64,000 bases of DNA, from positions 6,758,001 through 6,822,000 of the forward strand of contig NZ_CP063373.1 in NCBI RefSeq assembly GCF_015160855.1, written 5' to 3'. Positions 23,734 to 28,322 of this stretch are shown in pieces; positions within the stretch are counted from its first letter, which is position 1; every line of letters begins with the position of its first letter. Origin of the DNA: Streptomyces ferrugineus. Its GTDB lineage: Bacteria > Actinomycetota > Actinomycetes > Streptomycetales > Streptomycetaceae. The position numbers and the translations under genes were made by a program. The notes under the pieces are model-generated. The model was given only the letters and a program-made list of their open reading frames with translations. It was not told the DNA's origin and did not search any database.

Positions 23734-24780
23734 TCAGGCCCAGGGGCCGACCGCCGAGAAGGAACTGTCGGCGCGGAAGGTGGCGTTGTCCTGGAAGGGG
23801 TCGACGCGCAGCTCGTAGTTGTAGTGGCGGAGGTAGCGGCCAGGGTAGTTGTACGACTCCAGGCTGACCGAGCCGGTGGCCGAACCTGGCCGGGCGCAGT
23901 AGGTGGCGTCCTTGTTGAAGAGCGCCGTGCCGTTGCTCGCGTCGTAGCGGGTGCGGAGGTCCTTGTGCGGGTAGCGGCCGGGGAAGTTGACCGACCGGAG
24001 CGAGCGGCTGGTGTTCGTCGGCAGGGTGGTGCCGCCGGAGACCGGGTCGATGCTGCCCAGGGTGGGGACGACCTTCTTGATCAGGCCGTCGGCGTCGAAC
24101 TCCATCCTGTCGACGGTGGTTTCGCGGTCGGTGCCGTCACCGCCGGGGATGGCGAAACGGTGCCGGTGGCGTAGGCCACGCGGTAGTCCTCGTCCCGGGT
24201 GTCGTTCTCCGACCACATGAAGTTGGTGACCTTCGCGGCCATCGAAGGAGACCATGTCGTCGCTCAGCGGCACGACGTACGCCCGGCCCTGGCCCCAGTA
24301 GAGGTACGACTGGCCGTCGTCGTCGGTGAAGACCGCCGGGTCGATCATCTGGCCGGCGTAGGCGCCGCGGGCGATCAGCGGCCTGCCCAGGGGGCCCTTG
24401 AACGGGCCGGTGGGCGAGTCGGAGACCGCGACGCCGATGTTCGTGTCGGCGGAGTAGTTGCTCAGTTCGAGGACCTCGCCGGGCCAGCGCGCGGTTGTAG
24501 ACCCGGGAGTCACGCATCCTGCCCTTGAAGAGCTTGTCACCGCTGTAGAGCGACTTGCCGATGTGGTTGGCCGTGGTGACGCCGGACCCGATGGAACCGG
24601 GGGGTGACGGTGAAACCGACGGGTTGCGGGCCACCTCCACGCAGCGCGGCGGAGGTCCGGGTGTTCTGCTCGGTGGAGAAGCTCCCGGACGCGATGGCGG
24701 TCCGGAACGAGTCGCCGGTGGTGAACAGGTACCCGTTGCTTCCGATGCGTCGAACAACATTCTTCAGGGCAAGGCCGTTC
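23734..24780 (-). pseudogene. decayed LamG / GH43 / AbfB glycosidase gene
   Basis: In transcription order one sees a LamG-like segment (NHIGKSLYSGDKLFKGRMRD, then SRVYNRAL), a GH43 core (GQMIDPAVFTDDDGQSYLYW, then MWSENDTRDEDYRVAYAT, then TTVDRMEFDADGLIKKVVPT) and a C-terminal AbfB half (SLESYNYPGRYLRHYNY). These lie in at least three frames with missing sequence between them, so several frameshifts and deletions have occurred. The intact ancestor would have been a secreted arabinan- or xylan-side-chain hydrolase. It follows the sigma-AbfB gene on the same strand, and they were probably once co-transcribed. Confidence 0.8.
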
Positions 24781-24784
24781 AGCG

Positions 24785-26356
24785 TCAGGTCCAGGGCGCC
24801 TCGACGACGAAGGAGCGGCTGGCCCGGTGCGAGGCCGTGTTCTGCGAAGGGTCGAGCCACAGCTGGAGGTTGTCCCGGTGGCGGAGATAGCGGCCGGGGT
24901 AGTTGTACGACTCCAGGGAGACCGAACCGGCCGTGGAGCCGGAACGGGGGCAGAAGGTGGCGTCCTTCCGGAAGATGGCGGATCGGTCGTCGGGGTCCAG
25001 CCGGATACGGAAGGCGTAGTGCCGCAGGTACCTGCCCGTGGCGTCCCTGAGTGAGTAGCAGCGGGGGTCGGCCAGGCCGGGGACGAAGGTGAAGGTGGCT
25101 GCCTGCCGGGTGGCCGCGGAGCTGGTGGCTCTGACCGGGGCCAGGATGCCGAGTCGGCCGGACTGACTCACGTAGTCGCCGGGGTTGTCGACCGACCGTA
25201 GGGCATGCTGCCCCGAAACCCGCGCCGCAGCCGTCGTCGCCGGGGCTGATGTCGGCGTCGACGTCGGTGTCGGTGAGGCGGACGCTCTTGGGGACGACGG
25301 CACGGACGAGGCGGCTGGCGACAGCGGGGCCGCGACGGCGGGCCGCGGGGCCGTCTCGTGTGATCCCGTGGCGGTGTACCAGGCCACTGCGGCAGCCGCG
25401 AGCGTGACGGCACCCGCGGCTGCCGTAGCCGCGGGCTTGGCGGCCAGCCTCCCGATCGCCCGCGCCGTACGGCTCGCACCGCTCGCCGTACGCGCGCCCG
25501 CGCCCGAGCCCCCGCTTGCGCCGACGGTCGCCCCGGCCGATTCCGCCCCCAGCGCCCTGGCCAGTACCAGGCCGGCCAGGCCGACCGGCACCGGCACCAG
25601 CGCGAGGCCGGCCAGCAACCCCTCCGCCGGTATCAGGTCGGACGAGCTCAGCAGGCACTGCGGACAGTCGCGGACATGGCGTGCCAGCCGCTTGCGCCAC
25701 AGCGCGGACGGCCGCCCGTCCCACGAGGCGAGCACGGCGGCCAAGTCTGGGCAGCGCGGCGAGGCCGCCACGGCTCGTACGACGGTGCGCGCCGTCTCCA
25801 GCCGTTCCTTGACCCGCTGGATTCGGACCGCGGCATGCTGCGGTGTGAGGCCGCAGGCCGCCGAGAGCTCGCCGCGGGTCAGTTCACCGACGCTCTCCAT
25901 CCACCACAGCGCGAGTACCTCGCGTTCCTCGTCCTCCAGCCAGCGGGTCGCCTCCACCGCTTCACGCCGCTGGCCCGACAGCGCGAGCTGAAGAATCGCC
26001 AGGTCGGAGAAGTCGGCCTGCGGGTCTGGTTCGTGGGCGTTCCCCTCCAGGGGTTCCGTAGTGAGCCAGGGGTGCCCTCTGCGCCACCGGTCACGGATCT
26101 GTCGCACGGTGATGGCGACGAGCCAGGACCGGAACCGATCCGGTTGCTCCAGTCCGGGCAACCCGTCCAGGACTCGCATCATCGTCTCCTGGACCACGTC
26201 GTCGACGTCGCTGTGCCCGTCCAGCGCCCGCCCGACGATGTTGTAGACCAACGGCAGACAGTCCCGTATCAGCTGTTCCGAGGCCTGCCGGTCCCCGGCC
26301 CGCGCCGCCATGACGACGGCGACATCCGGCCGTTCCTGCCTGTTCTGCGAGCGCAC
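24785..26356 (-). CDS. membrane-anchored ECF sigma factor with zinc motif and extracytoplasmic AbfB domain
   Basis: This protein of about 523 residues combines functions usually split between several proteins. Sigma region 2 (about residues 24-92, with DVDDVVQETMMRVLDGL) and region 4 (about 132-188, with ELTRGELSAACGLTP) come first. An anti-sigma-like zinc motif HVRDCPQC (H227, C231, C234) follows. Hydrophobic stretches lie at about 245-267 and 308-326, then a Pro/Ser/Thr-rich linker (330-380), then an arabinofuranose-binding AbfB domain to the end (SLESYNYPGRYLRH). It probably senses arabinan outside the cell and transcribes arabinanase genes. GTG 26356 is the likely start, but a longer frame exists. 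It is divergent from a GH43-AbfB enzyme. Confidence 0.85.
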   Translation of the reverse strand: MRSQNRQERPDVAVVMAARAGDRQASEQLIRDCLPLVYNIVGRALDGHSDVDDVVQETMMRVLDGLPGLEQPDRFRSWLVAITVRQIRDRWRRGHPWLTTEPLEGNAHEPDPQADFSDLAILQLALSGQRREAVEATRWLEDEEREVLALWWMESVGELTRGELSAACGLTPQHAAVRIQRVKERLETARTVVRAVAASPRCPDLAAVLASWDGRPSALWRKRLARHVRDCPQCLLSSSDLIPAEGLLAGLALVPVPVGLAGLVLARALGAESAGATVGASGGSGAGARTASGASRTARAIGRLAAKPAATAAAGAVTLAAAAVAWYTATGSHETAPRPAVAAPLSPAASSVPSSPRASASPTPTSTPTSAPATTAAARVSGQHALRSVDNPGDYVSQSGRLGILAPVRATSSAATRQAATFTFVPGLADPRCYSLRDATGRYLRHYAFRIRLDPDDRSAIFRKDATFCPRSGSTAGSVSLESYNYPGRYLRHRDNLQLWLDPSQNTASHRASRSFVVEAPWT

Positions 26357-26540
26357 CCCGCCCCACCCGTCCCGTCGTCCTGCCGATGTGCCGAGGGCGA
26401 CAGTGTGCCAGGAGCGAATCCGGAGGATGCCCCGTGCCTTGGTCCGTGCCGCGTTTTCCGTTATGCGCGACGCGCCGGCGCGTCTCCTGTGTGTACGGCC
26501 CCGCACCGAGAACGGACGGAGCAACGCTGCTTCACCCCTC

Positions 26541-26570
26541 TTGACACCCGCTTTTACACCCCTCTAACTT
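26541..26570 (+). promoter_or_regulatory. promoter for the GH43-AbfB gene
   Basis: TTGACA (26541-26546) and TAACTT (26565-26570) are separated by 18 bp, a good vegetative-type promoter. The region also holds the direct repeat TTGACACCC/TTTACACCC. The predicted 5' UTR is over 300 nt, and the divergent sigma gene starts about 185 bp away. Confidence 0.5.
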
Positions 26571-26891
26571 TTGGCCGAATTCACGAACGATGTCCGACAT
26601 GTCGAACAAAGCAAAGCCCGTTGCCGGACCCCTCTGGCTCGCCTCCGCTTCCGCTCCGCGACGTGAAACAAGGATGTCTCTCTCATGAGCGATGCTCCCG
26701 CCGCTGCCGGCGTGGAACAGGTCGTCCGCCGACTCTTCGCCACGACGACGGCCGCGACAGGGGCAGCCGCTGCCACAGGCAACAGCCCAGTACCCCTGCC
26801 CCTGCGGCACAGCCACCGGCTTCCAGTGGTCACGCGTCCGGCACCCCGTTTCCACCCCGTCCCGGCACCCGTAGAAAGACAGGACACCCGC

Positions 26892-28322
26892 ATGTCAAGA
26901 CTGCTCACCCGGCTCGCGGCGATATTCGTCGCCGTCGGCCTCTTCTTCACCTCCCAATCCCTGGCCGCGCCTCAGCGGGCGGCCGCCGCCGACCCGGGCT
27001 ATCTGATGCTGCACTTCACCGGGGAGGGGTCGACCGGTCAGCAGATGTACCTCTCCCACAGTACGGACGGCCTGCACTGGAACGACCTCAACGACGGAGC
27101 GTCGATCCTGCGCTCCACGGTCGGCACGCGCGGGGTGCGTGACCCCGCACTGGTGAGATCCCCGAACGGTGACAAGTACTGGATCATCGCCACCGACCTG
27201 TGCATCGGCTGCGGGCAGAACTGGGAGGCCGCCGTGTACAACGGCAGCCGCAACCTCGTGGTGTGGGAGTCGACGGACCTGATCAACTGGTCGGAGCCGT
27301 GGCTGCTCAACGTCGCCGGCGCGATCCCCGACGGGCGCAACGCCTGGGCGCCGGAAGCAATCTGGGACCCGGCCTCCAACAACTACGTCCTGTACTGGGC
27401 GACGAACAAACCGGTCGACGGCGTGAAGAAGCACCGCATCTACTACGCCCACACCAGCGACTTCCGCTCCATCACCACCCCGCAGATCTACATCGAGCGC
27501 CCCGGCATGCAGGAAATCATCGACACCCAGATCGTCGAGATGCCGGCCGGCGTCGGCGACTACCGCTATGTGCGGGCCTCCGGCGACGGGCAGATCACCC
27601 TCGAAGGCAGCAACTCGATCCTCGGAACCTGGACCAACCTCGGCAACCTCTCCGGCATCGGCCTGACCGGTGCCCAGGTCGAGGGCCCGATGTGGATGAG
27701 GTTCCGCGACCGCGACGAGTGGGCGCTCTACCTCGACCAGTACTCCTCCGGACGCGGGTACATGCCGGTCACGACGGCCAACCCCTCCGCCCCCGGCACC
27801 TACCGGATTCCGGCGTCGGGAAGCTACTCCATGGGCGGCACCAAGAAGCGCCACGGCTCGATCCTGAATCTCACGGCCACCGAGGAGACCCGCGTCCTCG
27901 CACGCTGGGCCAGCACCCCGGCCAAGCGGCTCCAGTCGTACAACTTCCAGGACCGGTACGTGCGCCACGCCAACTTCGACGTACGCATCGACCAGAACAT
28001 CACCGGCCCCGACGCCCAGTTCCGGCTGCGGCCCGGCCTGGCAGGCTCCGGAACCGTCTCCTTCGAGTCGGTGAACTACCCCGGCTACTTCCTGCGGCAC
28101 GCCAACAACGACTTCCAGCTGGTCCGCAACGACGGCACCACCCAGTTCGCCGCTGACGCCACCTTCCGCCAGGTCGCCGGCCTCGCCGACGCCACCTGGT
28201 CCTCCTTCCAGTCCTACAACCACCCCGACCGCTACATCCGCCACTACGCCTACCAACTCCGCCTCGACCCGATCACCACCGCGACAGGACGCGCCGACGC
28301 CACCTTCCGCGTGACGAACTGA
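26892..28322 (+). CDS. secreted GH43 arabinofuranosidase-like enzyme with C-terminal AbfB domain
   Basis: This 476-residue protein has a signal peptide (MSRLLTRLAAIFVAVGLFFT..., cleavage near AAAAD). A five-blade GH43 domain covers residues 35-330, with GVRDPALVRSPNGDKYW supplying an acidic residue, NAWAPEAIWD, and the general acid likely in QVEGPMWMRF. An AbfB (CBM42) domain with two clear repeats (QSYNFQDRYVRH, ESVNYPGYFLRH) and a third (QSYNHPDRYIRH) follows. It should remove or bind arabinofuranosyl residues outside the cell. ATG 26892 is chosen for the signal peptide; an in-frame ATG at 26685 would bury it behind 69 residues. It faces the sigma-AbfB gene. Confidence 0.88.
   Translation: MSRLLTRLAAIFVAVGLFFTSQSLAAPQRAAAADPGYLMLHFTGEGSTGQQMYLSHSTDGLHWNDLNDGASILRSTVGTRGVRDPALVRSPNGDKYWIIATDLCIGCGQNWEAAVYNGSRNLVVWESTDLINWSEPWLLNVAGAIPDGRNAWAPEAIWDPASNNYVLYWATNKPVDGVKKHRIYYAHTSDFRSITTPQIYIERPGMQEIIDTQIVEMPAGVGDYRYVRASGDGQITLEGSNSILGTWTNLGNLSGIGLTGAQVEGPMWMRFRDRDEWALYLDQYSSGRGYMPVTTANPSAPGTYRIPASGSYSMGGTKKRHGSILNLTATEETRVLARWASTPAKRLQSYNFQDRYVRHANFDVRIDQNITGPDAQFRLRPGLAGSGTVSFESVNYPGYFLRHANNDFQLVRNDGTTQFAADATFRQVAGLADATWSSFQSYNHPDRYIRHYAYQLRLDPITTATGRADATFRVTN

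Follow-up and report, generated by a model that had tools for sequence, protein, structure and literature searches.

The building of a sigma factor and its membrane-bound regulator as one chain is already known in outline from the groups ECF52 and ECF53 of the extracytoplasmic function (ECF) sigma factors, and a family 42 carbohydrate-binding module (CBM42) on a membrane protein of a sigma system is known from Clostridium. In the available excerpts of the literature, the ECF52 protein SCO4117 of Streptomyces coelicolor is described as one chain with a sigma part, a zinc finger, a transmembrane (TM) segment, a proline-rich stretch and a carbohydrate-binding domain, and its release by proteolysis or conformational change is proposed (PMC5826349). 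ECF53 and ECF48 are listed there together with ECF52 as having fused zinc-finger/TM extensions, and some ECF52/53 members as having predicted glycoside hydrolase (GH) and carbohydrate-binding domains (PMC8999054, PMC10766802), and such members are described as still awaiting experimental validation (PMC10766802). According to similar excerpts, the anti-sigma protein RsgI5 of the plant-cell-wall enzyme system of Clostridium thermocellum has a CBM42 at its end (PMC4711584); a fragment of RsgI5 was degraded by ClpXP in vitro, and for RsgI6 both RseP and ClpXP were identified (PMC12203970). The present work concerns a protein of Streptomyces ferrugineus, hereafter sigma-AbfB, and its divergent neighbour GH43-AbfB, both encoded in a stretch of 64,000 nucleotides (contig NZ_CP063373.1, positions 6,758,001 to 6,822,000) referred to as the window.

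The sequence-only reading of this DNA had suggested that sigma factor, own inhibitor and sugar receptor are united in one chain, and our analysis supports this as the best model. We consider it moderately probable that sigma-AbfB is a receptor-type ECF sigma factor which inhibits itself, displays its CBM42 outside the cell, is freed by sugar and transcribes GH43-AbfB from a promoter-like motif. The cytoplasmic N-terminal sigma half would be held inactive by the zinc anti-sigma segment of the same chain, and a single membrane helix with a Pro/Ser/Thr stalk would present the CBM42 (AbfB) domain outside, where arabinan or arabinoxylan may be bound through their arabinofuranosyl side chains. This would lead to cleavage or to a conformational change, and the sigma half thus freed would start transcription at TTTCYGTTA-N18/19-GTCTCC promoters, here that of the divergent GH43-AbfB gene. 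The release step is proposed by analogy with the excerpts on ECF52 (PMC5826349) and RsgI proteins (PMC12203970).

Domain build and membrane topology of sigma-AbfB

The sigma-AbfB gene (24785..26356, minus strand, as are all the parts of it given below) starts with GTG and encodes 523 residues, as delimited by open reading frame (ORF) calls, profile matches and relatives of equal length. The domain order read earlier from the letters, with sigma regions 2 and 4, a zinc motif, hydrophobic segments, a linker and a terminal AbfB domain, was borne out. The ECF type follows from TIGR02937 (sigma70-ECF), which matches residues 25-188 with 63.2 bits against a cut-off of 42.9, and region 2 (residues 29-93; 26078..26272) matches Pfam PF04542 (Sigma70_r2, E 1.6e-14). 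The Pfam scan of the protein matched neither a region-4 model nor zf-HC2; region 4 (residues about 129-190; 25787..25972) is therefore placed by the coverage of TIGR02937 together with the helices of an AlphaFold2 model, and the zinc anti-sigma-like motif (25655..25753) by conservation. HVRDCPQC and the preceding C202 form the pattern C202-X24-H227-X3-C231-X2-C234, whose four residues are invariant in all 45 aligned relatives, and which we take to be the set of ligands typical of zinc anti-sigma domains, RsrA for example. There follow two hydrophobic stretches, a linker rich in Pro, Ser and Thr by its composition (residues about 333-381; 25214..25360; these three residues making up a median of 55% in the 45 relatives) and the AbfB/CBM42 domain (residues 386-518; 24803..25201; PF05270, E 9.4e-43), modelled with a predicted local distance difference test (pLDDT) score of about 90.

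The outer AbfB domain is a plausible arabinofuranose binder, judging from its relatives and residues. Its relatives in the PDB (2d43, 3akf and 9fnk) include the CBM42 of arabinofuranosidases and that of RsgI5, for which the entry 9fnk is named. RsgI5 is reported to bind arabinoxylan. The His and Asp residues H446, D457, H493 and D502 are presumably typical of CBM42 ligand sites. One repeat is conserved among the 45 relatives (H446 in 45, D457 in 44), a second varies (H493 in 28, with Tyr in 15; D502 in 39, with Glu in 6), and the first AbfB repeat of the window protein has, by inspection, neither the ligand-type His nor the Asp.

The membrane part is less clearly defined. Stretch 1 (residues 240-271; 25544..25639) and stretch 2 (residues 308-327; 25376..25435) reach Kyte-Doolittle values of 2.34 and 1.47, respectively, and both are hydrophobic across the 45 relatives, stretch 1 scoring higher. 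The role of stretch 1 is uncertain, since it might be an anti-sigma helix, a membrane hairpin or a TM segment. Stretch 2 is likely the single TM segment, with its N-terminal side inside and its C-terminal side outside, because an Arg-rich run directly precedes it in two paralogues with a CAP tail (L003/L127 and L118; absent from the other CAP paralogues inspected), and because paralogues bear domains of secreted-enzyme or lectin type behind it. Two points weigh against this topology: residues 250-378 have a pLDDT below 50 in the model, and two hydrophobic stretches may also give an even number of TM segments. Both stretches would then cross the membrane, and AbfB would lie in the cytoplasm, sensing an imported arabino-oligosaccharide or serving some other role. 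The hydrophobicity of both stretches in all these relatives, and the higher score of stretch 1, speak for such an arrangement, which we nevertheless judge improbable in view of the Arg-rich run in the two CAP paralogues and of the kind of outer domain found in the family. The density of Lys and Arg per residue, higher between the stretches than in the later linker in 37 of the 45 relatives, points the same way, weakly, as the raw count is higher in 23 of 45.

Sigma-region-2 and AbfB models were both matched in 113 of 120 homologues, the window protein included, these being the best of 4636 above the threshold among 8000 candidates scored; the build is thus no chance arrangement. The occurrence in many species of AbfB fused to the conserved sigma/anti-sigma half, together with the several unrelated outer domains borne by the same half, argues against a role of AbfB in the adhesion of cells to plant polysaccharide rather than in signalling. 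This role, which would fit the presence in the same genome of an AbfB protein that has a single hydrophobic segment and lacks a sigma part, appears highly improbable to us.

That sigma-less protein (L154:1553-2404, minus strand) has 283 residues. Matches that cover only residues 305-523 of sigma-AbfB were also seen in other Streptomyces (L046-L061), and these may resemble it.

Gene neighbourhood and promoter-like motif

Divergent from sigma-AbfB lies an intact AbfB enzyme gene (26892..28322, plus strand), defined by profile matches and orthologue alignment and starting with a hydrophobic, signal-like segment. Its ORF spans 26685-28322; the conserved start lies at 26892, the position matched by residue 1 of most orthologues. 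The earlier reading as a GH43-AbfB enzyme stood as regards AbfB (E 3.3e-47); the GH43 label comes from NCBIfam NF052546 alone (an alpha-arabinofuranosidase model), at 205.7 bits and thus below its cut-off of 500, and the Pfam GH43 model did not match this enzyme. The pairing of the two genes, which had been expected to be conserved, was indeed found again, with GH43-AbfB near sigma-AbfB in 17 of the 25 loci of clade 1 (flanks of up to 10 kb; several contigs end before 10 kb). Over 73 loci with script-called ORFs, an AbfB neighbour was present in 19: these 17, L045, where the match to the sigma protein is the AbfB end alone, and one of the 40 loci with other tails (L126). In clade 2 of sigma-AbfB, a GH10-RicinB-GH62 gene directly follows in L033, L034, L035 and L037 (Pfam on L034), and L149 has a gene resembling it.

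A shared promoter motif upstream of such enzymes, suggested earlier as a check, was also found. Alignment of upstream regions brought out TTTTCYGTTR. The family loci, about 1.4 Mb in all, contain 17 exact copies of it and 3 of the reversed pattern; with one mismatch the counts are 56 and 13. Of the exact copies, 8 belong to orthologous clade-1 loci, window included. Together with pattern scans, the alignment led to the form TTTCYGTTA-N18/19-GTCTCC, which in the window reads TTTCCGTTATGCGCGACGCGCCGGCGCGTCTCC (26455..26487, plus strand) and is directed to the GH43 gene. The motif pair, defined as a -35 half at most one base off followed by GTCTCC, occurs in 20 of the 25 clade-1 loci; of the 17 loci that have the GH43 gene, 16 show it aimed at this gene (14 strict; the copies of L023 and L028 are one base off in the -35 half). 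It accompanies GH43 even away from the sigma gene: distances to the sigma start of 4.4 kb in L017 and 7.4 kb in L020 contrast with one of 174 bp to the GH43 gene behind it in both. A PF05426 gene near sigma-AbfB lies behind the motif in L025 and L026. Clade 2 shows the exact -35 core TTTTCYGTTR, then GCCTCC, before the GH10-RicinB-GH62 gene in L033, L034, L035 and L037 and before the similar gene of L149. Where the sigma half carries a beta-helix instead, the motif is aimed at the divergent gene in three of four loci (exact core in L038, one mismatch in L041, two in L040), and was not found in the fourth, L043. A loose form of the pair precedes and faces the sigma genes of other subfamilies (L120, L126, L128, L130, L142, L143, L145, L148 and L152). 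We had also considered the motif as a block specific to the sigma/GH43 pair, as its long form occurs once in the window's own genome (reversed 0) and seemed to define no regulon; the -35/-10 form overturned this.

A scan of 101 Streptomyces genomes with the strict pattern TTTCYGTTA-N16-19-GTCTCC gave 33 sites, spread over 26 genomes, and its reversed form gave 1. Behind the 31 sites inspected (G001:C480 and G086:C1:1830198 were left out) lie 7 sigma genes of the family, 13 genes of a secreted-type protein of about 700 residues where complete (type b), 9 of a PF05426-kind protein with a signal of the twin-arginine translocation (TAT) type (type c; 8 by phmmer, L179 by inspection, Pfam on L157), one GH43 gene of the window kind and, in L163, nothing recognised. 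Conservation extends beyond the pattern, with T after TTA in 31 of 31, the next C in 28 and a C before GTCTCC in 28. Spacers are of 18 (18 sites) or 19 bases (13 sites), and none of 16-17 was seen though these were allowed. In 12 of the 13 type b genes, a potential in-frame start codon follows GTCTCC at 5-6 bases; so short a distance would be expected if GTCTCC is a -10 element and the message leaderless. The window's own genome has three sites when the second T of TT is relaxed to K (none for the reversed pattern): the window motif, one before a type b gene that neighbours a PL4 rhamnogalacturonan lyase and two GH43 genes, and one before a PF05426 gene. Type b is possibly an undescribed polysaccharide-acting protein. 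One complete type b protein (L159:5030-7147, plus strand, 705 residues) has a weak PATR match as its only Pfam result.

Several observations weigh against sigma-AbfB as the reader of the motif at GH43. The clade-1 loci are orthologues and not independent cases; 8 of the 25 have no GH43-AbfB nearby and 5 no motif, and an AbfB neighbour was found in none of the 7 other sigma-AbfB loci. The motif has no recognised enzyme behind it in L018 and L027, and is not seen in L036 and L044. Between its end and the GH43 start lie 405 bp in the window (93-630 bp in other loci where GH43 adjoins sigma), and in L028 another gene separates it from GH43-AbfB. No strict motif is directed at the sigma-AbfB gene itself in the loci examined; the loose pair has a high background (117 against 49 for the reversed control), so that only the strict form carries weight. 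Furthermore, type b and c sites track not sigma-AbfB but a paralogue with an unnamed tail, present in 15 of 16 genomes with such sites and in 1 of 17 without (Fisher p 2.5e-7, ignoring kinship). This sample comprised 33 Streptomyces genomes, hand-picked or taken as first relatives from the 101, leaving aside G086 and G106 (which have b/c sites), genomes with sites before sigma genes alone and relatives from other genera. The exceptions are G108, with a site and without the unnamed-tail sigma, and G012, with the reverse; L122 and L145 have tails without a match among the reference tails. Shared inheritance may underlie this co-occurrence. In L042, a type b gene directly adjoins the unnamed-tail sigma gene.

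Between the motif and GH43 there also lies a housekeeping-type promoter candidate, TTGACA-N18-TAACTT (26541..26570, plus strand), proposed from its form, which we take to be that of the housekeeping consensus. Just behind it stands an operator-like dyad of the form CGAACAATGTC-C-GACATTTCGAAC (26584..26607, from the upstream alignment), likely the repressor site of a second control. The promoter form recurs in 7 of the 16 aligned 330-base GH43 upstream stretches, and also in L028, and a similar dyad in 10 of the 16. The position of both elements, another point against control through the motif alone, suggests that GH43 is under dual control. Together with the behaviour of the b/c sites, they could even mean that sigma-AbfB is of receptor type and GH43 is not its target, a housekeeping sigma factor and the dyad repressor driving GH43 and another sigma factor reading the motif. 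We regard this as rather unlikely, since the motif accompanies GH43 away from the sigma gene (L017 and L020), is aimed at the neighbouring enzyme gene in clade 2 and in three beta-helix loci, and precedes the PF05426 gene near sigma-AbfB in L025 and L026; dual control is also possible. Which sigma factor reads which site we infer from such relations between sequences, and we link sigma-AbfB to GH43 because of adjacency, orientation and the motif moving with GH43.

Other features of the locus lie on either side of this gene pair. A decayed hydrolase with AbfB, recognised earlier downstream of sigma-AbfB, was confirmed at 23734..24640 (minus strand), its pieces at 24640-24482, 24456-24232 and 24162-23737 aligning to the intact LamG-GH43-AbfB protein of L011, the remainder being lost. 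Its AbfB is 56% identical to that of sigma-AbfB over 84 residues, and long intact relatives are present in L011, L012 and L014. Just upstream of sigma-AbfB, a block beginning CTCCTGGCACACTGTCG (26357-26430) is strongly conserved in clade 1, even where the sequence beyond it diverges, and was not found before other paralogues. The gene lying between motif and GH43-AbfB in L028 encodes a GH43-RicinB protein.

A family of sigma/anti-sigma halves with different outer domains

The same sigma/anti-sigma half was found with other tails. The window's own genome encodes a sigma-CAP and an unnamed-tail sigma protein, each 55% identical to sigma-AbfB over the matched part, and elsewhere the half carries CAP, a GH "catalytic core" (PF11790), a GH99 match, RicinB, a beta-helix or AbfB. 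It is present in 19 of 21 genomes of one set and in 18 of 20 of another, the latter hand-chosen. Some of these tails stand beside enzymes of fitting substrate: sigma-beta-helix has a divergent pectinesterase in L043 and also in L038, where a pectate lyase comes next, and the sigma-RicinB protein of L129 has RicinB-bearing neighbours, including a GH3-RicinB protein. The idea that every outer domain is copied in a neighbouring enzyme proved only partly true when 67 outer parts were compared with their neighbours. The tail was matched within its own locus in 14 of 29 cases for AbfB, 1 of 17 for CAP (L125) and 1 of 1 for RicinB (L129), and in none for beta-helix, GH-like, L126 or unnamed tails. 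For some of these tails the fit lies in function and not in the domain, as with the pectin enzymes beside the beta-helix and type b beside the unnamed tail in L042.

These observations allow a broader, tentative reading, to which we give somewhat less than even weight. An actinomycete family would share one sigma/anti-sigma/TM half and exchange the outer domain (CBM42, beta-helix, GH-like, RicinB, CAP or unnamed), all members reading TTTCYGTTATC-N-CGTCTCC at their own genes and at genes for secreted polysaccharide-degrading proteins that fit the substrate, several targets having a potential start codon just 5-6 bases downstream of the -10 element. If so, the transmembrane receptor would itself be the transcription initiation factor.

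Some further members were noted. CAP is the commonest tail, in about 20 of 45 Streptomyces family members (genomes partly hand-chosen), e.g., L003/L127 and L118. The unnamed outer domain, of about 200 residues and without a Pfam match, is found in L134:8766-10454 (minus strand), L042:9833-11707 (plus strand) and L119:8694-10550 (minus strand). Short family sigma genes lacking an outer domain (L129:7897-8718, plus strand, 273 residues; L136:1484-2368, plus strand, 294 residues) lie close to full-length ones, on the opposite strand.

Comparison with known systems

Little is known about how Gram-positive soil bacteria detect plant polysaccharide in insoluble form, and this locus offers a compact test case, in which a single gene goes with a candidate class of ligands, a candidate target next to it and a promoter-like motif that is well defined. 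Should these proteins read one promoter type through their conserved sigma half, with the signal chosen by the outer domain, sugar-gated gene switches might be made by swapping domains. The sequence-only reading had added that sensing through AbfB was not worked out, which is only partly right given the CBM42 of RsgI5 and the one-piece ECF52/53 proteins, as far as the available excerpts describe them. What is new here is the occurrence of homologous sigma/anti-sigma halves with other outer domains, several beside enzymes of fitting substrate, and the promoter-like motif. Among the literature matches listed, mostly open papers, there was no AbfB-bearing ECF sigma factor, no such fit between outer domain and neighbour and no such motif, which is weak evidence of absence; the excerpts of PMC6767563 (on the sigma-E regulon), PMC8103513 and PMC6056542 contained nothing decisive.

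Sigma-AbfB resembles ECF52 in the zinc CHCC motif after the sigma part (45/45). A likeness to the TM segment, proline-rich stretch and carbohydrate-binding end of ECF52 is tentative: the linker and AbfB are present, and the TM segment is predicted by hydropathy. Sigma-AbfB differs in that its outer domain is AbfB, and in that its own genome holds a separate protein of ECF52 build (L153: sigma, a weak zf-HC2 and an NPCBM end). The window protein is 28% identical to L153, against 55% to the paralogues with other tails; SCO4117 itself is compared here by its description. The published SCO4117 motif, CSGYN-17-SRHA in the excerpt available, also differs from TTTCYGTTA-N18/19-GTCTCC. Our guess is that sigma-AbfB belongs to ECF53, with the difference that AbfB, the matching of neighbours and the promoter motif are not given in the ECF53 descriptions within the accessible text. 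With the SigI/RsgI systems, finally, the window protein shares the build of a membrane-bound sigma-system protein ending in CBM42. It does not have their arrangement of a sigma-I factor with a separate RsgI anti-sigma gene: those are two proteins with a sigma factor of the sigma-I type and another promoter, whereas the window encodes an ECF sigma factor, a zinc anti-sigma motif and CBM42 in one chain.

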